Shown here in pieces: positions 53,497 through 64,000 of a stretch of 64,000 nt of DNA. How positions within the stretch are numbered: position 1 is the first letter of the stretch; every line of letters starts with the position of its first letter. The position numbers and the translations under genes are program-made. Source of the stretch: Planctomycetales bacterium (GTDB lineage: Bacteria; Planctomycetota; Planctomycetia; Isosphaerales; Isosphaeraceae); assembly GCA_027449865.1 (NCBI GenBank), contig DAIDKV010000046.1, positions 1 to 64,000 of the forward strand. Reading direction: 5' to 3'. The notes under the pieces are model-generated. The model had not been told where the DNA came from, did no database searches, and worked only from the letters and a program-made list of their open reading frames with translations.

Positions 53497-54966
53497 TCAC
53501 GCTGCGCTGGCCGCAGCCTCGGTCAGAGAGTTGACCAGGGTGTCGGCCGTCCCCTCTGCGGCGTGGATGCAGTCAGGGATTCCAACGCCGTCGAAGGCCA
53601 CGCCGGTCAGGTAGAGTCCCGAATGCTTGGCGAGCTTTCGTCGGATGGCCTCAACCCGTTCCAGGTGCCCGAGGGTGTATTGCGGCATCGAACGCGCGTG
53701 ACGTCCGATCTGAATAAAGATCGGGTCACCGGAGGCCCCGATCAACTCGCCCAGTTCGCGACGAACGATCTCCTCGATGGCAGTATCATCGAGATCGAAG
53801 TATTCGGGCTGGGTCGCCCCGCCGATGAAGACACGGACCAGTGCCTTGCCCATGGGCGCTCGGTTCGGGAACTTCACGCTGAGGAACGAGATCGCCAGGA
53901 TCGGCCGCCGCTCGATAATTGGCACGACCACGCCGAAGCCGTCAAGCGGATGCTGGATCTGATCGCGATTGTAGGCGACATTGACGATGATCGACGAAGC
54001 ATAGGGGATCGACCGAAGCTGGAGCGAGAGGCCTGGATCCTGCGTGTCGATCAGCCGGGCGGCGGCGTGCGCCTCGGTGGTGAGAACAACCGCGTCGGCT
54101 TCGATGGGTGGTCCGTCGAGCAACTCGACCAGCCAGGGTGAAACCGGGTCATTCCGGATTACTCGGCGTACGGCCGCGCCCGTTCGGATCGTCCGGGTTG
54201 GCAAGGCCGCTGCGAGGGCCTCGGGAAACGCTCCCATGCCTTGCTCGAGCGCCACGAACAAACCATACCGCGCTCCAGAAGCCTGGCCCGATAGTCGTCC
54301 TCTCCGCCTCGACTCGCGGAGTCCCGCGAGAATTAGACTGCGATGCTCGCGCTCCATTGCCAGGAACTGCGGCAATGTCGCCTTGAGGCTGAGGTCGTTC
54401 GGGTCGGCGGTGTAAATTCCGCCGACGAGAGGTTGGATCAGCCGGTCGAGCGCCTCGCGACCCAGACGACGGCGAACAAAACCCGCGAGGCTCTCCTCAG
54501 CATCATCATCTCGACGTGGCAGAAACAGGTCCATCAACATCCGAAGCTTGCCGCGCCAGGAGATCACCGGCGTCGCCAGCAGCGGACCAAGCCGCTGCGG
54601 GGCCATCAGGACGAAGCCCTCCGGCACTGGTGTCAACCGACCGTCGCGGACCACGAACGAGCGACGTCGCCCCGGGTCCGTCTCGATCAGCTTTTCCTTG
54701 AGACCGAGCCGGCCACAGAGCTCGAGCGCCCAGGGCTTGTTGGTGATGAAGGAGTCCGGCCCGCATTCCACGTTGAATCCGTCGCGATGATCGGTCCAGA
54801 TGACACCGCCGACTCGCTCCCTCGCCTCAAGGAGTGTCAGCTCGACCGGTCGGCGCAACGACTGCATACGCTCGTGAATACGATGCGCCACGGCCAGTCC
54901 CGAGAGACCGCCCCCCACCACCACCACACGTTTCGCCCGCGCCGGGTCAAATTTCACCTCGGCCAA
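53497..54966 (-). CDS. hemY: Protoporphyrinogen/coproporphyrinogen oxidase (HemY/HemG FAD type)
   Basis: FAD enzyme of heme synthesis, about 489 residues. The dinucleotide site is VVVVGGGLSGLAVAHRI near the N-terminus; NVECGPDSFITNKPWALEL and LTGVAFDGVGIPDCIHAAEG are typical of the family. No ATG is available near the fold start. I chose TTG at 54966 with GAAGGGA about 10 bases upstream; GTG 54957 and TTG 55020 are other options. hemE lies upstream on the same strand (223-base gap), so the two heme genes probably belong together. Confidence 0.88.
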   Translation of the reverse strand: MAEVKFDPARAKRVVVVGGGLSGLAVAHRIHERMQSLRRPVELTLLEARERVGGVIWTDHRDGFNVECGPDSFITNKPWALELCGRLGLKEKLIETDPGRRRSFVVRDGRLTPVPEGFVLMAPQRLGPLLATPVISWRGKLRMLMDLFLPRRDDDAEESLAGFVRRRLGREALDRLIQPLVGGIYTADPNDLSLKATLPQFLAMEREHRSLILAGLRESRRRGRLSGQASGARYGLFVALEQGMGAFPEALAAALPTRTIRTGAAVRRVIRNDPVSPWLVELLDGPPIEADAVVLTTEAHAAARLIDTQDPGLSLQLRSIPYASSIIVNVAYNRDQIQHPLDGFGVVVPIIERRPILAISFLSVKFPNRAPMGKALVRVFIGGATQPEYFDLDDTAIEEIVRRELGELIGASGDPIFIQIGRHARSMPQYTLGHLERVEAIRRKLAKHSGLYLTGVAFDGVGIPDCIHAAEGTADTLVNSLTEAAASAA

Positions 54967-55189
54967 TTTCGGTCGTCCCTTCTCGTGATGAGCCCTTCTT
55001 ATCCGACGCCCCGGCCGCAACGCGAGATCTCGATTTCGCTCGCAGCTTAATCGATTTCATCGCAACAGGCGCGGAAAAAGCAATCCAGCATCCGCGTTTG
55101 TCAATCCCGTCGAGTTTGCTTGTTCGCTTGCTCAGTAAGTCGAACTGGATCACTGGCTCCTGAATCTTAACAGATACGCAACCCAGCAG

Positions 55190-56290
55190 TCAGCCGACCC
55201 GCCTCGATCCAGATGCCCTCCTCGAGGATGCATTGTGGACGAAATCCACCAGCGCCCGGACATTCTCGACTGGTGTCGTCGGGAGGATACCGTGTCCAAG
55301 GTTGAAGATATGCCCGGGGCGTCCTTCAGCTTCGTCGAGGATCCTCTGGGCCTGGGCTTCGATCTCGGCCTGGTTCGAGAGCAGAACGACCGGGTCGAGG
55401 TTTCCCTGAACAGCGACGCTCTCGCCGAGCAGTTGTCGAGCCGCGCGAAGGTCGACCCTCCAGTCGAGACCGATGACCGTTCCGCCCGCCTCTCGCTGGA
55501 GTTCCAGGAGCGAGCCGGTGTCGGTGCCAAAATGGATTGTGGAAACCCTGGAGTCGAGCCCCGCGAAGAGACGAGCCATGTGCGGCTGGACGAATCGTCG
55601 GTAGTCGGTCGGACTCAGGCTGCCGACCCAGCTATCGAAGACCTGCAACGCCTGCGCACCCGCAGCGGCCTGAGCGTTCAAATAGGTTGTCGTCGCATCG
55701 ACAAACCGTCTCATTAACGCATCCCAGGCGCCTGGGTCGGCATACATGAACGCCTTGGCCTTCTCGTAATGCCGCGACGAACCTCCCTCGATGGCGTAGC
55801 AGGCCAGGGTGAACGGTGCCCCAGCAAAGCCAATGAGCGGGAGGTCGGGCCTTAGCGCCGAGCGAATCGACCGAACTGCCTGGTAGACAAAATCGAGCGG
55901 TGCGGGGTCCTCAAACGGCCGGATGGTGTCCACGTCTTTCGCTGTCCGGACCGGATTGTGGATGACAGGCCCCTCACCCTTCGCGAATTCGAGTCCGAAG
56001 CCCATAGGCTCAAGGATCAGGAGAATGTCGGCAAACAGGATGGCGGCGTCGACCCCGAGTCGCTCCGCCGCCGTGACCGTCACCTCCGTTGCCAGCTCTG
56101 GCCGCTTGCAGAGGTCGAGGAATGGGACCCTAGAGCGCAACTCCCGGTACTCAGCCATGTACCGGCCAGCTTGCCGCATTAGCCAGATGGGAGTGACATC
56201 AGTCGGCTCGCCTCGACAGGCCTTCAGGAAGGGAGAATCGGCCAGCGGGTCGCGGGCAGGCGACGTGGGGGGGTGGGTCGGACAGTTCAT
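55190..56290 (-). CDS. hemE: Uroporphyrinogen decarboxylase
   Basis: Decarboxylates uroporphyrinogen III to coproporphyrinogen III. About 366 residues from the ATG at 56290 (MNCPTHPPTSPARDP); the frame further upstream is not conserved-looking. Motifs: PIWLMRQAGRYMAEYRELR, the catalytic Asp region in ILFADILLILEPMG, IGFAGAPFTLACYAIEGGSS, DSWVGSLSP and FNLGHGILPTTPVENV. It is divergent from the LOG-family gene. Confidence 0.94.
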   Translation of the reverse strand: MNCPTHPPTSPARDPLADSPFLKACRGEPTDVTPIWLMRQAGRYMAEYRELRSRVPFLDLCKRPELATEVTVTAAERLGVDAAILFADILLILEPMGFGLEFAKGEGPVIHNPVRTAKDVDTIRPFEDPAPLDFVYQAVRSIRSALRPDLPLIGFAGAPFTLACYAIEGGSSRHYEKAKAFMYADPGAWDALMRRFVDATTTYLNAQAAAGAQALQVFDSWVGSLSPTDYRRFVQPHMARLFAGLDSRVSTIHFGTDTGSLLELQREAGGTVIGLDWRVDLRAARQLLGESVAVQGNLDPVVLLSNQAEIEAQAQRILDEAEGRPGHIFNLGHGILPTTPVENVRALVDFVHNASSRRASGSRRVG

Positions 56291-56566
56291 GGACGCCGAA
56301 GGCTTCTCCAGTCTGGGGGCAGAACCGACCGGGCGCTGCGACAATCGCAGCGACGGCGCGAATGTTGCCATTCTACAACGCTTCTCGTAACCCGGGGAGA
56401 CTTCGGCGGCGATTCCGACGGCCAGGACTGGTTGCGGTCGGATTCCTCCCTAGAATGATAGATGGCCCTGGATGATTGGATCGAATCTCTCGCCCGATAA
56501 AAGGCGCTTCCGTGCCAGGTTACAATTGTCGGGCGCCTCTCCCCTTTCGACGGAAGAAGACAGGCG

Positions 56567-57517
56567 ATGGAGCACGAAGGTTTTGTGGGCCGGCAGGGCG
56601 GGCCGGACGCGTCGGCGCGCGAATACCTGGAATCGCATGGGGCGGGTCGCGCTATTGAAGGGAACGGAGCCGGGCCTCCAACGCCCCAACGCCATGAGAC
56701 TCGGCGCACGGGACCACGCCGAACCGCCGACGAGCAATTCCTGGAGAGCCGAGGGAGTGGCGAGCCATCTCCCTGGTCGCCCGAGAGCGGTGCCTTCACT
56801 CATACCGAGTCGTGGCGAATTCTGCGAATCCAGGGCGAATTCGTCCACGGGATCAATACGATGGCGGAGGTTGGGGCCGCTGTCAGTATCTTCGGCTCGG
56901 CCCGCTTCGAGCCATCGCACCCTATGTGCGTCGAGGCCCAGAAGCTCGGCGACCTTCTCGCGCATGCCGGATTCGCTGTGATCACGGGAGGAGGACCGGG
57001 AATCATGGAGGCGGCCAATCGGGGTGCCTTCGAGGCCGGTGGCCTTTCCGTCGGCTGCAACATCGAACTCCCCTTTGAGCAGGCCGGCAACCCCTACACA
57101 AACCTCGCCATCCACTTCCGCTACTTCTTCGTCCGCAAGATGATCTTCGTGAAGTTCTCCAGCGGCTTTGTCATCTTCCCTGGGGGCTTTGGCACGCTCG
57201 ACGAATTGTTCGAGGCTCTCACGCTGGTCCAGACTCGCAAGATCAGCCGGTTCCCGATTATCCTCTATGGACGCGACTACTGGCGCGGGCTGCTCGACTG
57301 GATGGCGAAAGCCCAGCTTGGAGGCGGAACGATTTCGCCCCAGGATCTGGATTTGCTTGAGCTGACCGATTCCGTCGAGGAAGTTCGCGACATCCTCGTG
57401 GATTGCTACCGGAAGCAAGGCCCGGCAGTGCCCCGGCACTCGGTCCGGGCCGAGATGCGGCGGGGAGCCTTCCACGTTCCAATGACCTCGACGGCCGATA
57501 AGGCCGATGGCCAGTAG
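56567..57517 (+). CDS. LOG-family (lysine-decarboxylase-like) nucleoside-monophosphate phosphoribohydrolase
   Basis: 316 residues. The C-terminal 220 carry the Rossmann-like LOG fold: AVSIFGSARFEPSHP, VITGGGPGIMEAANRGAFE and FVIFPGGFGTLDELFEALTL. The PGGxGTxxE motif marks enzymes that remove the ribose phosphate from nucleoside monophosphates (cytokinin activation in plants). The N-terminal 85 residues are low-complexity and probably disordered, an unusual extension. It overlaps the following open frame. Confidence 0.9.
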   Translation: MEHEGFVGRQGGPDASAREYLESHGAGRAIEGNGAGPPTPQRHETRRTGPRRTADEQFLESRGSGEPSPWSPESGAFTHTESWRILRIQGEFVHGINTMAEVGAAVSIFGSARFEPSHPMCVEAQKLGDLLAHAGFAVITGGGPGIMEAANRGAFEAGGLSVGCNIELPFEQAGNPYTNLAIHFRYFFVRKMIFVKFSSGFVIFPGGFGTLDELFEALTLVQTRKISRFPIILYGRDYWRGLLDWMAKAQLGGGTISPQDLDLLELTDSVEEVRDILVDCYRKQGPAVPRHSVRAEMRRGAFHVPMTSTADKADGQ

Positions 57518-57560
57518 CCAGCAATCCCCACTCGATCGCGATGGCGGAGGAGCAAACCTG

Positions 57561-58766
57561 ATGTCAGGATCATCAACGGCTGCCGATGCAGGGGCTCACC
57601 TCGGTGCCATCGAGACGGCTCTTCGCGAAGGTGGACCAGCCGCCGCGATCGATCGCCTCACCGCTGACCTCGATGCCTCCGGCGATTATCGGGCTCTACT
57701 TGATGCCCTGCTACTCAAGGCCCGCCACGAACTGGGTCTGCCTCCCATCGCCCCGCCCTCAACCGCAGAGATCCCCGAGCCCCTCCGATCTCGATATGAG
57801 GAGCGTTATGTCGAAGCGATCCGGCTTGTCGGCTCGAAACACCTGACGATGGGCGACATCCCGACCGCCTGGGCCTACTTCCGCGTCATCGGCGAGACCC
57901 AACCTGTCGCCCGCGCCATCGACGAATACCGTCCGGACGACGAAGATCCTGACCGCCTCGGTGCTGTGATCGAGGTCGCATTGAATCACGGAGTCCATCC
58001 TCGCCGGGGTTTCGAGCTGATTCTGGAGCATTACGGGACCTGCTCGGCAATCACAGCATTCGAAGGGATTCCGCCGCATGATGAGTCCGTCCGCGCCGCC
58101 TGTACCGAACGGCTGATTGACCGGTTGCATCGCGACCTCTCCGCAAACGTCAGGGCAGACATTGCCAGTCGAGGACAGCCGTCACCGCACGAGGGTGCCT
58201 CGCTCGCCGAGATGATTGCCGGACGCGACTGGCTTTTCGCCGAGGATTCCTATCACATCGACGTCTCGCATCTGGCGTCCGTGGTCCGAATGTCGCTCAT
58301 GGCAAAGGATCATTTGGCCATTGCGAAAGCTGCTGATCTGGCCGAGTATGGCCGTCGCCTCTCGCCGAGGCTTCAGTACGAGGGAAATCCGCCGTTCGAT
58401 CGGACCTACGAGGACCACCGGCTCTACTTGAATGCCCTGCTGGGCAAGAACGTCGACGAGGCACTGGCCCTCTTCCGGTCGCGGCTTGGCGATCCCGGAA
58501 CCTTTGCGGAGGATTCGGATTCGGCGGCACCCACGCTGGCGGCACAGGTTCTCGTGAATCTTCTGGCTCGGCTCGGGCGGCTGGACGAGGCAATCGAGGT
58601 TTCCTCGGCGTATCTGGACGGTCTGCCTGACGCCTCGCTGTTCTGTCCCACGGTTGCCCAACTTTGTCAGAGGGCTGGAAATCCGGCCCGGCTCGCCGAG
58701 ATCGCCCGACATCGCGGCGATCCCGTTCAATATGCCATCGCTTTGCTCGCCATGGCCGTTCAATAG
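57561..58766 (+). CDS. Helical repeat protein of unknown function
   Basis: Start 57561 has GGAGGAGC 8 bases upstream, better than the ATG at 57507 that overlaps the LOG gene. 401 residues, mostly predicted alpha-helix, with HLGAIETALREGGPAAAIDR and a C-terminal TPR-like LLARLGRLDEAIEVSSAYLD. No catalytic motif was identified. It converges with kaiC, 15 bases apart. Probably co-transcribed with the LOG gene. Confidence 0.75.
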   Translation: MSGSSTAADAGAHLGAIETALREGGPAAAIDRLTADLDASGDYRALLDALLLKARHELGLPPIAPPSTAEIPEPLRSRYEERYVEAIRLVGSKHLTMGDIPTAWAYFRVIGETQPVARAIDEYRPDDEDPDRLGAVIEVALNHGVHPRRGFELILEHYGTCSAITAFEGIPPHDESVRAACTERLIDRLHRDLSANVRADIASRGQPSPHEGASLAEMIAGRDWLFAEDSYHIDVSHLASVVRMSLMAKDHLAIAKAADLAEYGRRLSPRLQYEGNPPFDRTYEDHRLYLNALLGKNVDEALALFRSRLGDPGTFAEDSDSAAPTLAAQVLVNLLARLGRLDEAIEVSSAYLDGLPDASLFCPTVAQLCQRAGNPARLAEIARHRGDPVQYAIALLAMAVQ

Positions 58767-58781
58767 GGAAACGAACGATTC

Positions 58782-60329
58782 TCAGACCGGCGGTCGAAGG
58801 CTCTTGTTCGGGTCGTCCTGAAACATGGCGTCGAGCCGGCCGATCTCCTCATTCGCGGCGTGGATCGCCCGACCGGAAAGGATTCCCGAGACATTCCGGA
58901 AGGCCGGTCCGATGTGCATCCCCTTGTCATCGATGGAAAACTCGCGGATCTCCTTCTGGTGCATCGATCCGCGCATTTTGAGGACAGCCAGCCCTCGTCT
59001 CATCTCGCCAAGGATCTCAACGTAGCGGAGCAGGATGATCGAATCGGTGATCGATGAAATGTGCGCCTCGCTGACCGAGGTACCGCCCATGAGTTCGGGA
59101 GTTGTCGCGGTGAACAGCCCGGCCAGCTCTCGGTGCTTGATGAACGAGGTCAGGCTGATGACAAACTCGCGGAAGCTTCGGATCGAGCTGACCCGCTCGA
59201 GCGCAGAGAGACTATCGATGGCGACACGATTTGGGTTAAAGCTTTCGATCTCGCGTTTTATTGTGATGAGGTGGTCCTCCAACGTGGTGGCCTCGGGATA
59301 AACGCAGACGAGTCGGAGTCGGCCGTCAGCCTCCATGGCCTCGAAGTCGACGCCCCAACTCAGAGCGTTGCGAAAGAGCTGATCGTGGCTCTCCTCGAAG
59401 GCAAAAAGGAGCGATCGCTCGCCTGCCTCGGCCCCTCCGCTGAGAAATTCGGTTGTCAGCAGGGTTTTGCCAGTGCCCGTGGCTCCCGAGACAAGTACAA
59501 CCGAGTCGCGAAAGAAGCCGCCGCCGCACATCCCATCGAGTTCCGGGATCCCGGAACTAATCCGAACGTTCGACGATCTCTGACGTAACTCGATCGCCGA
59601 GAGGGGCAGGACGATAATCCCGTGCCCATCGGTGATTGTGAAAGGGAACTGTCCTTTCTGGTGCGAGGTTCCGCGAAACTTGAGGACCTCGACGGTCCGT
59701 CGTCGCTTCTCCTGCTCGAGCGCGTTTCTCAAGACGAGGACGTTGTCGGCAACGAACTCCTCGACTCCGTAGCGACCGACTTCACCCTCATCGGCGCAAC
59801 GCTCGGATGTAAGCAGACCGGTAACGCCCAGATCCTTCAGGGCCGCCGTGAGGCGGAAAATCTCGTGGCGGATCCGAGAGGAGTCGAACTGCGTGAAGAT
59901 CCCTCCGAGTGAGTCGATCGAGACTCGGCTGGCTCCCAGCCGTCGGATGGCATGCTCGATTCGGACAATGAGTGCGCCAAGGTCGAAATCGCCGGAGACA
60001 AGCGTTGGCTCTCCGGGCTGGATGGAGGCGTCGACGAACGCCCACTTGCCGGCCGCCTCCCATCGGGCCACATCCCAGCCAAAGCCCGCCAGATTGCGCC
60101 GGATGTCGGCTGACCGCTCCTCGAACGTGACGAATACACCTGGTTCGGCGAACTGATCGATCCCCGAAGCGAGAAACTGCGCTGCGAATACGGTCTTGGC
60201 ACTACCGGCGGTTCCCGAGATGAGTGTTGTCCGGCCTCTCGGAAGTCCGCCATACGTGATCAGGTCGAAGCCCTCGATTCCGGTTAGGAGTTTCTCGACG
60301 CCGGCCGCGCCCGCCTCGACTGCACCCAT
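58782..60329 (-). CDS. kaiC: KaiC-family double-domain clock-type ATPase
   Basis: 515 residues, the length of cyanobacterial KaiC (519). The ATG at 60329 has GGGAGA 7 bases upstream. CI has Walker A GTAGSAKT (39-46) and catalytic Glu-Glu in FVTFEERSADIRRN (70-71); CII has Walker A VSGATGTGKTLL (about 268) and FAFEESHDQLFRN. The CII phosphosite region reads AHISSITDSI: Ser425-Ser426 replace the usual Ser431-Thr432 pair. The tail DDPNKSLRPPV is shorter or different from the KaiA-binding tail of cyanobacteria. Downstream of the receiver/KaiA-like gene with a 161-base gap. Confidence 0.93.
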   Translation of the reverse strand: MGAVEAGAAGVEKLLTGIEGFDLITYGGLPRGRTTLISGTAGSAKTVFAAQFLASGIDQFAEPGVFVTFEERSADIRRNLAGFGWDVARWEAAGKWAFVDASIQPGEPTLVSGDFDLGALIVRIEHAIRRLGASRVSIDSLGGIFTQFDSSRIRHEIFRLTAALKDLGVTGLLTSERCADEGEVGRYGVEEFVADNVLVLRNALEQEKRRRTVEVLKFRGTSHQKGQFPFTITDGHGIIVLPLSAIELRQRSSNVRISSGIPELDGMCGGGFFRDSVVLVSGATGTGKTLLTTEFLSGGAEAGERSLLFAFEESHDQLFRNALSWGVDFEAMEADGRLRLVCVYPEATTLEDHLITIKREIESFNPNRVAIDSLSALERVSSIRSFREFVISLTSFIKHRELAGLFTATTPELMGGTSVSEAHISSITDSIILLRYVEILGEMRRGLAVLKMRGSMHQKEIREFSIDDKGMHIGPAFRNVSGILSGRAIHAANEEIGRLDAMFQDDPNKSLRPPV

Positions 60330-60490
60330 CTGTGATCTCCCGATCCACGCCTGAAGGCCGGCGGGGACGGACTTCGCGCGTCGATCCCTTTGACCATCGC
60401 CGACCTCGGGCAACGAGGCCCTACCCCTCCAGCGATCATTTTATCCAGACGGTCACCCTCATCGAGCCGGTCTCGTTCGCCCGGAAGCTC

Positions 60491-61366
60491 CTAGCCCAGG
60501 CGAGAGGAATCGGTTGGATGGTCGCGATAGTAGGAAACGAGATGCCCCATCATTTCCAGGACCAGAAGCCGTCCCTCGTCGAGATAAGCCCGTGCCCGGG
60601 CCGCGGCCACCCCGACCGATCGCGATTTCAGGACGTCGCCATACAGCTCGACCACGTCGCGTGGACCGGCTCCCAGGGATCCGAGCCGATCACCGACCTT
60701 CCTCAACTCGGTACTGATATCGTGCTCGATCCGGTAGTTTTGCTGCTGGATGGCCATATCCAGAAGCCGCTCGCATCGGGCGGCCAGCCCCGAGAATTCC
60801 TCGGGATGATTTTCCCGAAGCGATCGGCTACGCGCTCCCGGATCGTCTGATGTGGGCGCAGCGGACATCCGCCGCCCGAGTTCCTGAAGCTCGCGCTCGA
60901 GTTGTTCGATTTTCTCAGCGCCCGCTCGCGCGGCGTCTTCGGCCCGTCGCATCCGGAGTAGGCCCCGGATGCTGGCCACGAGCACCAGCGGCTCCACCGG
61001 CTGGATCAAGTATCCATCGGCACCGCTGATGAGCCCGAGCGAGCGATCTTCATCTCGCACGTAGCGTGCCGAGATGTGGAGCACCGGGATCGAGGCCGTG
61101 GTGGGATCCGCCTTGATCCGTCGGCAGACCTCGAAGCCATTCACATCGGGGAGGTCTACGTCGAGGACAACCAGGTCGTGCCGCCTCTGTGCCACCATCC
61201 GGAGCGCAGCGCTCCCGTCGATGGCCTCCTCGACCCGGAAGCCTTCCCTGGAGAGCATTCGGCTCACCGCGTAGCGATTGGCATCGTCATCGTTGACGTT
61301 GAGGATCATCGGCGAATCCTCAGCCCCGGTTGAAGAGCTAGGATTGGCGGCTCGGTTGGGATTCAT
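60491..61366 (-). CDS. Receiver protein with KaiA/RsbU_N-like C-terminal domain
   Basis: 291 residues. Residues 20-140 are a receiver: ILNVNDDDANRYAVSRML, phospho-Asp69 in LVVLDVDLPDVNG, and Gln122 (YLIQPVEP) in place of the conserved Lys. After a coiled segment, residues 188-285 match the helical KaiA C-terminal/RsbU N-terminal fold by pattern: FSGLAARCERLLDMAIQQQN, AGPRDVVELYGDVLKSRS and YLDEGRLLVLEMMGHLVSYY. In cyanobacteria a pseudo-receiver plus this domain makes KaiA, which stimulates KaiC. The start overlaps the kinase stop by 4 bases (ATGA). The KaiA likeness is from pattern reading and needs structural comparison. Confidence 0.85.
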   Translation of the reverse strand: MNPNRAANPSSSTGAEDSPMILNVNDDDANRYAVSRMLSREGFRVEEAIDGSAALRMVAQRRHDLVVLDVDLPDVNGFEVCRRIKADPTTASIPVLHISARYVRDEDRSLGLISGADGYLIQPVEPLVLVASIRGLLRMRRAEDAARAGAEKIEQLERELQELGRRMSAAPTSDDPGARSRSLRENHPEEFSGLAARCERLLDMAIQQQNYRIEHDISTELRKVGDRLGSLGAGPRDVVELYGDVLKSRSVGVAAARARAYLDEGRLLVLEMMGHLVSYYRDHPTDSSRLG

Positions 61367-62661
61367 GTACCTGCCCCCGCGGCAATCCCCCGAATTTCGA
61401 CCACCATCGGGCCAGTGTAAGCGATCGGCAAGCGAAGCCGGAATGTGGAGCCGATCCCAGGACGACTTTCGAGAGCGACGTCGCCGCCGAGTAACCGCGC
61501 AAGCTGTCGTGAAATCGGGAGACCCAGCCCGGTTCCCTTCAGCCGGACCTGGAGCGGGCTTTCGACCTGGGCAAACTCCTCAAAGATCCGCGATTGGTCC
61601 TCAAGGGCGATACCGATCCCGGTGTCGGCGACGGCGAACTGGATAGTGGCCTCGTCCACCATACCGGCCGAGATGCGAACCTCGCCTCGCTCGGTGAATT
61701 TCAGGGCGTTGGAAAGGAAGTTCCGAAGGATTTGCGCCACTTTTCCCTGGTCTGTTCGAAGGAGCGGGATGTCGTCGGGCAGCTCGAAGACCAGGTCGAC
61801 CGCGTCCGAAGATCTCAGGGGGCGCATCATCCCCCGCAGGGCGGCAAACAGATCATGTACGCTGAAGTTCTCGGGGCGTATGGTCGCCTTCCCGGCCTCG
61901 ATCCGCGCCAGGTCGAGAAGGTCATCGACCAGTTCGGAGAGCCCCTGGGCGGACTGTCGGATGTAACGAACCTCGGTCCGCTGGTCGGGGCCGAGCCGAT
62001 GTTCCCCTTCCTCGTCGAGCAAAAGCCCGGAGAGCGAGAGGATGGCGTTGATCGGCGTTCGGAACTCGTGGCTCATGTTCGAGAGAAATCGAGATTTCAA
62101 CTCACCGGCGCGGCGGAGAGCAGTGGCCTTATCCTCCAGCTCGGCGTAGAGGGCGAGAATGCCGCGATTGGTTTCGGCCAGCTCGGCCTCGGCTCGGCGG
62201 CGGGCCTGTATATCACGGACAAGCTGACGCTGGCTCTCGGCCAACTCGCGATTGAGGGCCAGGACGGACCCACGCAGAGCTTCCGACCCCTCGATGTCGT
62301 GCTCGGCGACGACAAAGAGTCCGCCTCCACATTGATAAGCAGCCCCACCCAGCGAGACGGGTGTGGTGCCGGGACGGCCAAGATTCAGAATGCCGCGGTA
62401 GAGAGGGAGTCCGTTGTACTCGTCTCCTGCTCTGCGGTCTATCAGCTCGGAGAAGGTTGGCTGGATGAACGAACCGGCGGCGTTCCACCTCGATTGGTCT
62501 GGCCATAGCTCGGTACCGATGGCGATGCGGAGAAATCCCCGGTTGGCATCAGCGACCGTGCCATCGGCCTCGAGACAGGCCATGGCCGTCGCCCTCGAAT
62601 CACGGAGAAAGTCGGGGACGCGAGCCCATTTGAGATCCAGCCGATCAGGTGTGGGCTTCAC
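61363..62661 (-). CDS. Soluble histidine kinase with PAS-like sensor
   Basis: GTG start at 62661 with GGGAGG upstream, overlapping the cobalamin-protein gene by 17 bases; an ATG at 62724 is less likely. About 432 residues: a PAS-like domain (MACLEADGTVADANRGFLRI, AAYQCGGGLFVVAEHDIEG), a coiled coil with ALNRELAESQRQLVRDIQ, HisKA with NMSHEFRTPINAILS and HATPase_c with NFLSNALKFTERG, DTGIGIALEDQ and KGTGLGLPISR. No transmembrane helix. Its likely partner is the receiver in the next overlapping gene. Confidence 0.92.
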   Translation of the reverse strand: MKPTPDRLDLKWARVPDFLRDSRATAMACLEADGTVADANRGFLRIAIGTELWPDQSRWNAAGSFIQPTFSELIDRRAGDEYNGLPLYRGILNLGRPGTTPVSLGGAAYQCGGGLFVVAEHDIEGSEALRGSVLALNRELAESQRQLVRDIQARRRAEAELAETNRGILALYAELEDKATALRRAGELKSRFLSNMSHEFRTPINAILSLSGLLLDEEGEHRLGPDQRTEVRYIRQSAQGLSELVDDLLDLARIEAGKATIRPENFSVHDLFAALRGMMRPLRSSDAVDLVFELPDDIPLLRTDQGKVAQILRNFLSNALKFTERGEVRISAGMVDEATIQFAVADTGIGIALEDQSRIFEEFAQVESPLQVRLKGTGLGLPISRQLARLLGGDVALESRPGIGSTFRLRLPIAYTGPMVVEIRGIAAGAGT

Positions 62662-63706
62662 GGAGGGCCTCCCTCGCGTTGGCTCCCCAGAGATCGGCGT
62701 CAAGGTCTCGCCAGAGGCTGTCAAGCTGGTTCAGCGCCAGTCCTCCGATGAGGACCGACGGGCGTCCCGCGCCGCCGTCGCTCCGGATGCTTTGGATCAC
62801 CTCGCGACCCGTGCTCACCTGCGAGGGCATCGAGATCGATAGCCCGACCAGGTCGGGACGAAATCGGTCGATCTGCTCAAGCAGCGACCGGGTTGGCGTG
62901 TCGGCTCCAAGGAACTGCACTTCCCAACCCTTGATCTCAAAGGCGTCGGAGACCATACGTAGACCCAGATCGTGGTGATTCCCCTCAACACAGGAGAAAA
63001 GGGCCTTGCGGCGGACCGGAGGAGCAAACTCGGCGGAGGCAAATGCCTGGGCCATCAGGCTCTCGCTGATCGCCGTCGCCAGGTGCTCCTGCGCGATCGA
63101 AACCTTGCTGACCTGCCAGAGCCGGCCGATTTCGTACATCGCCGGCTGGATCAGCCCGACGCCGACGTCGACCAGTTCGGTCCCCTGTTCGATCGGCTCG
63201 AAGATCATTCGACGTGCGGTCCCTCGATCGCCCGCAATCAGTGCGGCGCAGAGGGTCGGCGCGGCGGGGTCGCTCGCGGTCAGATGTCGATAAAAGGAGG
63301 GCTGATACTCGCCGGGCTCCTCCAGCGCGACCATTCCAGTCCAGAGGACGGCGTCGACCAGCGCATAGTCTTGCGGGGCCAGCCGGCTCGCCCAGGCCCT
63401 GGCCAGAAGCTCAAACGACTCGACCAGATGCGAGGCGGGGATTCCCTTGCCTTCCAGAACCGAGGCCAGCCACCGGGCATACTCCCGGAAGGGATCGGAA
63501 TAACCAGTCTCAATACAGGCGCGGACATATTCCAGATGGTAGGTCAGGTCTTCTCGGCAGTAATCGCGGCCCCAGGCTCCATACTGAGATTCCCATTCCG
63601 GATGCCTTTGGTAGAGAGTCTCCACGACCTCGTCAACCACACCGGCGGCCATCACTACCAACTGCTCTCGGCCCACAGGCGAGAGGGAAACGGGAAGCTT
63701 GGGCAT
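62645..63706 (-). CDS. Cobalamin-binding, CarH/LitR-like sensor without DNA-binding domain
   Basis: 353 residues; GAGGAGGG lies 5 bases before the ATG. Residues 1-140 are a helical domain not seen in CarH. Residues 145-220 match the B12-capping helical domain: W197 and E207-H208 (LWQVSKVSIAQEHLAT) form the W-x9-EH signature of adenosylcobalamin photoreceptors. Residues 233-353 are the Rossmann B12 domain: H245-D-L-G248 (the family's ExHxxG; here Asn occupies the E/D position), VGLSISMP and LIGGLALN. In this family light cleaves the Co-C bond and changes oligomeric state. No MerR HTH is present, so its output must be the adjacent kinase. Confidence 0.88.
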   Translation of the reverse strand: MPKLPVSLSPVGREQLVVMAAGVVDEVVETLYQRHPEWESQYGAWGRDYCREDLTYHLEYVRACIETGYSDPFREYARWLASVLEGKGIPASHLVESFELLARAWASRLAPQDYALVDAVLWTGMVALEEPGEYQPSFYRHLTASDPAAPTLCAALIAGDRGTARRMIFEPIEQGTELVDVGVGLIQPAMYEIGRLWQVSKVSIAQEHLATAISESLMAQAFASAEFAPPVRRKALFSCVEGNHHDLGLRMVSDAFEIKGWEVQFLGADTPTRSLLEQIDRFRPDLVGLSISMPSQVSTGREVIQSIRSDGGAGRPSVLIGGLALNQLDSLWRDLDADLWGANAREALREAHT

Positions 63707-63732
63707 CGGCCCTCCTCTGGATCGGCCGAGGC

Positions 63733-64000
63733 TCAGTCGGCCACATGCTCGAGCACGCGGATCGAGACACTCCCGGGGACGACCTTCAGCCCCTTCGGCA
63801 TCCCTCGGTGAGATTCCTTGTAATCATGGCTTCGATGCCAGAGACGAAAGCTCTCTTCATCGGTCCAGTAGGTAAAGAGCCAGAACTCGTCCGGCTGGTC
63901 TCGCGGGCTGAGTACTTCGAGACGGAGGAATCCGGGCGCATCCTCGACCAGGTGAGGCCGGGCGCGGAATGCGTCTCGAGTCGGATTCGACATCTCACCC
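63733..64000 (-). CDS. ABM-domain (antibiotic biosynthesis monooxygenase/heme-degradation type) protein, partial
   Basis: The visible 86 residues show an ABM ferredoxin-like fold: APGFLRLEVLSPRDQPDEFW, LFTYWTDEESFRLWHRS and the end SVSIRVLEHVAD. Its natural start is probably beyond the right edge: the Met at 63993 (MSNPTRDAFRARPH) falls within what is normally the first helix, and no spaced ribosome-binding site precedes it. The stop is 26 bases before the cobalamin-sensor gene, so it may belong to the same operon. Family members include heme-degrading monooxygenases and small signalling enzymes. Confidence 0.8.
   Translation of the reverse strand, partial: GEMSNPTRDAFRARPHLVEDAPGFLRLEVLSPRDQPDEFWLFTYWTDEESFRLWHRSHDYKESHRGMPKGLKVVPGSVSIRVLEHVAD

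Follow-up and report, generated by a model that had tools for sequence, protein, structure and literature searches.

The window analyzed here (64,000 bp, the start of the 88-kb contig C46 in a planctomycete genome of 8.5 Mb that is 99% complete) contains a five-gene cluster that we interpret as the light input and the core of a KaiA3-KaiB3-KaiC3 timer. In this timer a signal would pass from light to a photocobilin and then, via a histidine kinase and KaiA3, to KaiC3. We regard this interpretation as fairly probable, with no biochemistry behind it. The cluster itself is far beyond chance, as orthologues and the same gene order occur in related and unrelated genomes. The presence of the gene set in unrelated Chloroflexota suggests a direct, undescribed light input into a Kai timer.

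The gene cluster and its sensor

Five ORFs on the minus strand, extending from the window end down to position 58782, encode an ABM protein, a B12 protein, a histidine kinase, a receiver protein and KaiC (Table 1). The same five genes had been listed in the first-pass annotation of this DNA. All the ORFs are present, their coordinates are essentially correct, and the Pfam search agrees with them (ABM; B12-binding_2 and B12-binding; HisKA and HATPase_c; Response_reg; two KaiC domains). The overlaps of 17 and 4 bases reported there were also borne out: the photocobilin and kinase genes overlap by 17 bp when GTG 62661, a start kept in congener G017, is taken for the kinase, and the kinase and receiver genes by 4 bp. 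The neighbor upstream of the cluster is an unrelated repeat-rich protein. At 57507-58766 on the plus strand, a TPR-like protein of unknown family is convergent with kaiC; this neighbor is kept in G017 (L075).

Table 1. Predicted genes of the cluster, with window coordinates and supporting evidence.
Product	Position	Strand	Evidence or remark
ABM-fold protein, IsdG/HmoB/HmuQ-like	63733..64000 (ORF in window 63733-63993)	-	True start outside window
Photocobilin	62645..63706	-	PDB profile match 8j2w, predicted model, conserved residues
Soluble histidine kinase	61363..62661	-	Pfam HisKA and HATPase_c, congener orthologues
KaiA3-type protein	60491..61366	-	Pfam Response_reg, Crocosphaera watsonii match, genome scan, hhalign
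KaiC, KaiC3-like	58782..60413	-	NCBIfam TIGR02655, tree, residues

As far as sequence and a predicted model can tell, the B12 protein is a photocobilin, with a photoglobin of the phycobiliprotein fold (residues 1-140) followed by a four-helix and Rossmann B12 photosensor (residues 145-353); chromophore binding is inferred. The best PDB match of a profile made from this protein and five relatives was the Saccharothrix photocobilin 8j2w (E 1.9e-45). The B12 and globin parts match 8j2w separately and in reversed chain order (8e-6 for the globin part), and for the N-terminal part there is a further match, to allophycocyanin alpha (E 2e-6). In the predicted model (pLDDT 86), residues 143-353 superimpose on photocobilins (Z 25.4), and a phycobilisome chain matches residues 1-129 (Z 16.6, rmsd 2.3, 128 aligned). 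Earlier the protein had been read as a CarH-like sensor without a DNA-binding domain. Of this description the B12 photosensor stands and so does the lack of a helix-turn-helix, given that neither Pfam nor the PDB profile revealed a MerR-type or HTH DNA-binding domain; the N-terminal photoglobin, which makes the protein a putative photocobilin, had been missed. Two planctomycetes from the same family (L078:7328-9796 and L079:7030-9369) encode photocobilin, histidine kinase and receiver as one fused protein.

The key bilin residues of SasPcob, Asp270 (D270) and Trp296 (W296), align with D53 and W79, which are invariant in relatives. This register is confirmed by AbDPcob, a weak bilin binder with His at the bilin Asp position (PMC10979010), since that His falls in the same column. 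The AdoCbl photosensor motif W197-x9-E207-H208 is intact and the His ligand H245 is present, both being conserved in relatives. The Wx9EH motif is crucial for the photoreceptor activity of CarH (PMC9304148); together with both bilin residues it is kept in the full-length relatives, with the exception of the L079 relative, where EH is replaced by GH. In the window lineage, Asn replaces the acidic residue that precedes the His ligand of B12. All known B12 ligand motifs are present except for this residue, and binding itself is inferred. The residue following Trp197 is Gln. In light-exposed CarH, a His after that Trp caps the cobalt.

The ABM gene, confirmed by Pfam, starts with an ATG at contig position 64032, just past the window edge. 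With the extended start the protein covers positions 1-77 of the Pfam ABM profile (20-77 for the window ORF). Its nearest solved chains are TT1380 (1e-12) and the HmoB family (2e-8), and the match to NCBIfam HmuQ (6.8e-10) is below the model cut-off. By these matches the protein resembles heme-degrading HmuQ/HmoB; it retains both members of the W-x9-H pair, Trp and His. A genome search for canonical heme oxygenase (PF01126) found none, hence the source of bilin is uncertain. The HmuQ/HmoB-like ABM protein may supply it, an idea that is weak because the catalytic Asn is replaced by Ser. A few kilobases from the photocobilin cluster (53497-56371, minus strand) there are two likely heme-synthesis genes, encoding uroporphyrinogen decarboxylase (URO-D) and a flavin amine oxidase-family protein similar to protoporphyrinogen oxidase.

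Kinase and Kai proteins

The histidine kinase is soluble and consists of a PAS-like N-terminus, HisKA with the SHEFRTP box, and HATPase_c; its orthologues are present in four congeners. For the earlier label of a PAS-like kinase, Pfam supports HisKA and HATPase_c and finds no PAS domain, so that the N-terminus remains PAS-like only.

From its homologs, the receiver protein is assigned to the KaiA3 type, orthologous to cyanobacterial, Roseiflexus and Chloroflexus KaiA3. It is composed of a receiver domain, with the invariant phospho-acceptor D69 and the β5 Lys replaced by Gln (Q122), and a KaiA-like C-terminal helical domain (residues 183-283). Four main helices are predicted in the C-terminal 100 residues (188-211, 217-230, 235-250 and 255-282). 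Identity to the protein from the KaiA3 locus of Crocosphaera watsonii is 31% over 248 aa (E 2e-36). When the family was compared with the KaiA C-terminus by hhalign, the scores were 24.5 and 26.0, and all of the 200 and 100 shuffled controls, respectively, scored lower (means 10.6 and 11.4, maxima 15.9 and 19.7). The hhalign match to RsbU_N was likewise above its shuffles, as expected for a fold common to it and the KaiA C-terminus. The previously claimed KaiA/RsbU_N-like domain can thus be placed in this superfamily, and specifically in the KaiA3 family. On their own, Pfam and NCBIfam models missed the KaiA-like domain of this protein, and a PDB sequence search with the receiver-protein profile gave no relevant match. 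The Foldseek and VIA lists for this protein were filled by receiver domains and did not probe the C-terminal fold.

The C-terminal region was then used to scan 84,980 named genomes, the query being the closer alignment set with the consensus sequence as the first row. The matches included the KaiA3 loci of Crocosphaera, Microcystis, Roseofilum, Roseiflexus and Chloroflexus, as well as proteins from Desulfobacteraceae, Chromatiaceae, other planctomycetes and a Helarchaeota archaeon. KaiA3 has already been described in several of these groups (PMC11372060). In about 71 of 80 loci kaiB is directly next to kaiA3, usually followed by kaiC; in the window genus only kaiC adjoins kaiA3. On a contig from a Helarchaeota (Asgard) MAG (L142:2536-11831), a single row of genes comprises two-component genes, kaiA3 and two copies each of kaiB and kaiC, and on a Calditrichia contig (L161:1604-10666) two kaiA3-kaiB-kaiC sets and additional kaiB-like genes lie side by side.

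KaiC scores 639 bits against the circadian KaiC model of NCBIfam (TIGR02655, cut-off 546) and is 65% identical to KaiC from the Crocosphaera kaiA3 locus. On the tree it is found among KaiA3-linked KaiCs, outside KaiC1 of Thermosynechococcus (T. elongatus), and is classified on this basis as KaiC3-like. The catalytic Glu pairs (EE) of both domains and the C-terminal KaiA-docking tail are retained. The sites of Ser431/Thr432 are occupied by S453/S454, a Ser-Ser pair in the window genus. The earlier description as full-length KaiC holds for the two Pfam KaiC domains and the TIGR02655 score, with the correction that the gene probably starts at ATG 60329 rather than at TTG 60413.

We looked for kaiB or its remnant between kaiA3 and kaiC in the window cluster and found none. 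An orphan KaiB is encoded on contig C229; it is 82% identical to KaiB from a Gemmataceae kaiA3BC locus and conserved in three congeners (91-100%). It adjoins a PAS histidine kinase of the type that often follows kaiC elsewhere, and the PAS domain of this kinase is mostly 42-56% identical to those of post-kaiC kinases in other kaiA3BC loci. Since the orphan gene sits beside such a kinase, away from the cluster, the usual kaiA3-kaiB3-kaiC3-kinase operon appears to be split in two in the window genus, with the putative KaiB3 provided in trans. Assignment of this KaiB to the KaiB3 class is likely and not certain, because the KaiB tree is based on 91 columns and poorly resolved. The genome encodes two further KaiCs of different classes, one on contig C215 (locus L011) and one on C16 (locus L010), both accompanied by a neighboring KaiB and hybrid kinase of their own. 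In L222, too, there is a set of the C215 type, at a distance of about 5 kb from a photocobilin.

Gene order in congeners and in Chloroflexota

The first-pass annotation had proposed a search for the same gene order in relatives. This order was found to be complete in one congener, deletion scars account for two others, and the order recurs in Chloroflexota. Among five congeners, all labelled Planctomycetales, G018 has the complete series ABM-photocobilin-HK-kaiA3-kaiC, and the contig of G017 begins inside the photocobilin gene. Two of the five, G016 and G019, have no photocobilin and retain HK-kaiA3-kaiC. The G016 scar fuses ABM residues 1-61 to the 13 C-terminal residues of photocobilin; that of G019 retains about 10 ABM residues ahead of the same photocobilin tail (nucleotide match E 4e-6). 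Both scar ORFs terminate just inside the kinase start. Because the ABM start and the photocobilin tail meet in these scars, we infer that the ancestor of the genus carried the photocobilin. Two congeners have lost it and kept the rest, hence light input is dispensable there. The deletions (L104:3796-4128 and L141:3901-4140) differ in the 5' breakpoint; in both cases a leader ORF made of the ABM start and the photocobilin tail remains and preserves the translational overlap with the kinase.

Two complete clusters were identified in Chloroflexota: photocobilin-HK-kaiA3-kaiB-kaiC-HK in an Anaerolineae genome (L126), where 22 bp separate the first two genes, and photocobilin-HK-REC/kaiA3-kaiB-kaiC-HK/REC (L220). 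There is also one re-ordered cluster (L216, kaiA3-kaiB-kaiC-HK-HK-photocobilin-HK) and one B12-only version (L165, B12 protein-HK-kaiA3-kaiB). Kinases partnering Chloroflexota photocobilins have one common N-terminal domain (30-57% mutual identity). In 396 Anaerolineae genomes, 3 of 13 full-length photocobilins are encoded in kaiA3BC clusters; by a rough estimate, photocobilin and kai genes would come within 6 kb of each other by chance in less than 1% of genomes. Photocobilin and HK form a unit with or without kai genes, and most kaiA3BC loci have no photocobilin nearby. The hypothesis that Kai-linked photocobilins form one clade was rejected (AU p 2e-5). Therefore the link either arose on more than one occasion or is ancient and has frequently disappeared, and photocobilins may have been recruited to kai loci repeatedly. 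Three candidates were not counted: L222, as its KaiC is placed near the C215 paralogue, in a different class; the KaiB-like L223 gene, which has a long branch; and the B12 protein beside kaiA3 in L159, which is divergent and has a motif without EH.

Proposed pathway and related systems

In the pathway that we propose, the photocobilin would bind adenosylcobalamin and possibly bilin, and change its state in green or blue, possibly red, light. It would then act on the co-translated histidine kinase; standalone photocobilins are able to act via protein-protein contacts (PMC10979010), and contact with this kinase is inferred. The kinase would phosphorylate D69 of the KaiA3-type receiver domain, and the receiver would gate the KaiA-like C-terminus, which is expected to bind the C-terminal tail of KaiC3 and thereby set the autophosphorylation of S453/S454. 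KaiB3, encoded elsewhere beside the PAS histidine kinase, may provide the opposing step and the output. Synechocystis KaiA3 stimulates the KaiC3 autokinase and raises KaiC3 phosphorylation (PMC11372060), and stimulation of KaiC3 by KaiA3 in the window organism is assumed by analogy. Phosphotransfer to KaiA3, the direction of the signal, its dependence on light and any rhythm are likewise inferences. Several of the observations above weigh against the pathway: the photocobilin has been lost from two congeners and is missing near most kaiA3BC loci, Kai-linked photocobilins are not monophyletic, the receiver has Q122, the B12 part deviates by the Asn before the His ligand and the Gln after Trp197, and the genome search revealed no canonical heme oxygenase.

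The photocobilin could instead inform the kinase and KaiA3-KaiC3 about the supply of adenosylcobalamin, or about heme/bilin status, its light sensitivity being incidental. B12 domains also act as non-light regulators, and such a B12- or redox-status input would be in line with the Asn in the His-ligand motif, with the missing PF01126 heme oxygenase in a genome whose ABM protein resembles heme-degrading enzymes, and with the photoglobin-free B12 protein of L165. We nevertheless find it rather unlikely, as the window protein and its full-length relatives retain Wx9EH (GH for EH in L079) and both bilin residues, and the closest solved proteins are photoreceptors. The survival of HK-kaiA3-kaiC after photocobilin loss in two congeners and the existence of photocobilin-HK pairs without kai genes could also mean that kinase, KaiA3 and KaiC3 make up a stress or metabolic timer, or hourglass, with the photocobilin as an accessory that mainly drives another output via the kinase. 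This is distinctly improbable in view of the repeated placement of photocobilin-HK right before kaiA3, with overlapping or closely spaced genes, in both Chloroflexota and planctomycetes. That an ordinary kaiA3-kaiC remnant merely happens to lie beside an unrelated B12 protein and a two-component kinase is scarcely credible: photocobilin does occur in only a minority of kaiA3 loci, but the gene overlaps, the same order in Chloroflexota and the scars of an ancestral gene contradict it.

We thus prefer the light-input reading. A stronger version of it, proposed only tentatively, is possible: a dual-chromophore (B12 and bilin) photoreceptor acting through a phosphorelay on a KaiA-type activator would constitute a light-entrained KaiABC oscillator outside cyanobacteria, with the photoreceptor and perhaps a bilin-making enzyme in the operon. 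The cyanobacterial Kai clock is set mainly via metabolism (ATP/ADP, quinones). To our knowledge, no photoreceptor acts directly on KaiA or KaiC. A full-text literature search (unpublished and subscription papers being outside its scope) yielded no paper mentioning both photocobilin and KaiC; in the few papers that contain cobalamin, KaiC and photoreceptor together no link between them was seen, judged by titles and abstracts. Within these limits, the earlier statement that no described pathway joins a B12 photoreceptor to KaiC was upheld. The cluster makes the question of light-set Kai clocks outside cyanobacteria testable with a handful of purified proteins, points to a possible natural partner for photocobilins, and widens the range of KaiA3-type clock genes to include planctomycetes and further groups.

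The window photocobilin shares with SasPcob and AbDPcob (PMC10979010; PDB 8j2w, 8j2y) the photoglobin, the B12 photosensor, Wx9EH and the bilin Asp and Trp, and like SasPcob it is standalone. It differs in the N-terminal position of the photoglobin, in the His-ligand motif NxHxxG, and in having a histidine kinase with a Kai core as the partner instead of diguanylate cyclase. CarH repressors have the B12 photosensor domain and Wx9EH as well, whereas the window protein lacks the MerR DNA-binding domain, has an additional photoglobin, and carries Gln rather than His after the Trp. The canonical cyanobacterial KaiABC (KaiC1) system also has the double KaiC domain, catalytic Glu pairs, adjacent phosphosites and C-terminal docking tail; in contrast to it, the window KaiC is KaiC3-like with Ser-Ser phosphosites, KaiA3 has a real receiver, and the operon includes a dedicated photoreceptor gene. 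With Synechocystis KaiA3-KaiB3-KaiC3 (PMC11372060) the cluster shares the receiver with a KaiA-like C-terminus and the KaiC3-type KaiC, and most relatives also have its kaiA3-kaiB-kaiC order; in the window genome, however, kaiB3 is at a separate locus, and photocobilin and histidine kinase genes precede kaiA3. Each part comes from a known family, and the combination is a variant of the KaiA3-KaiC3 kind.
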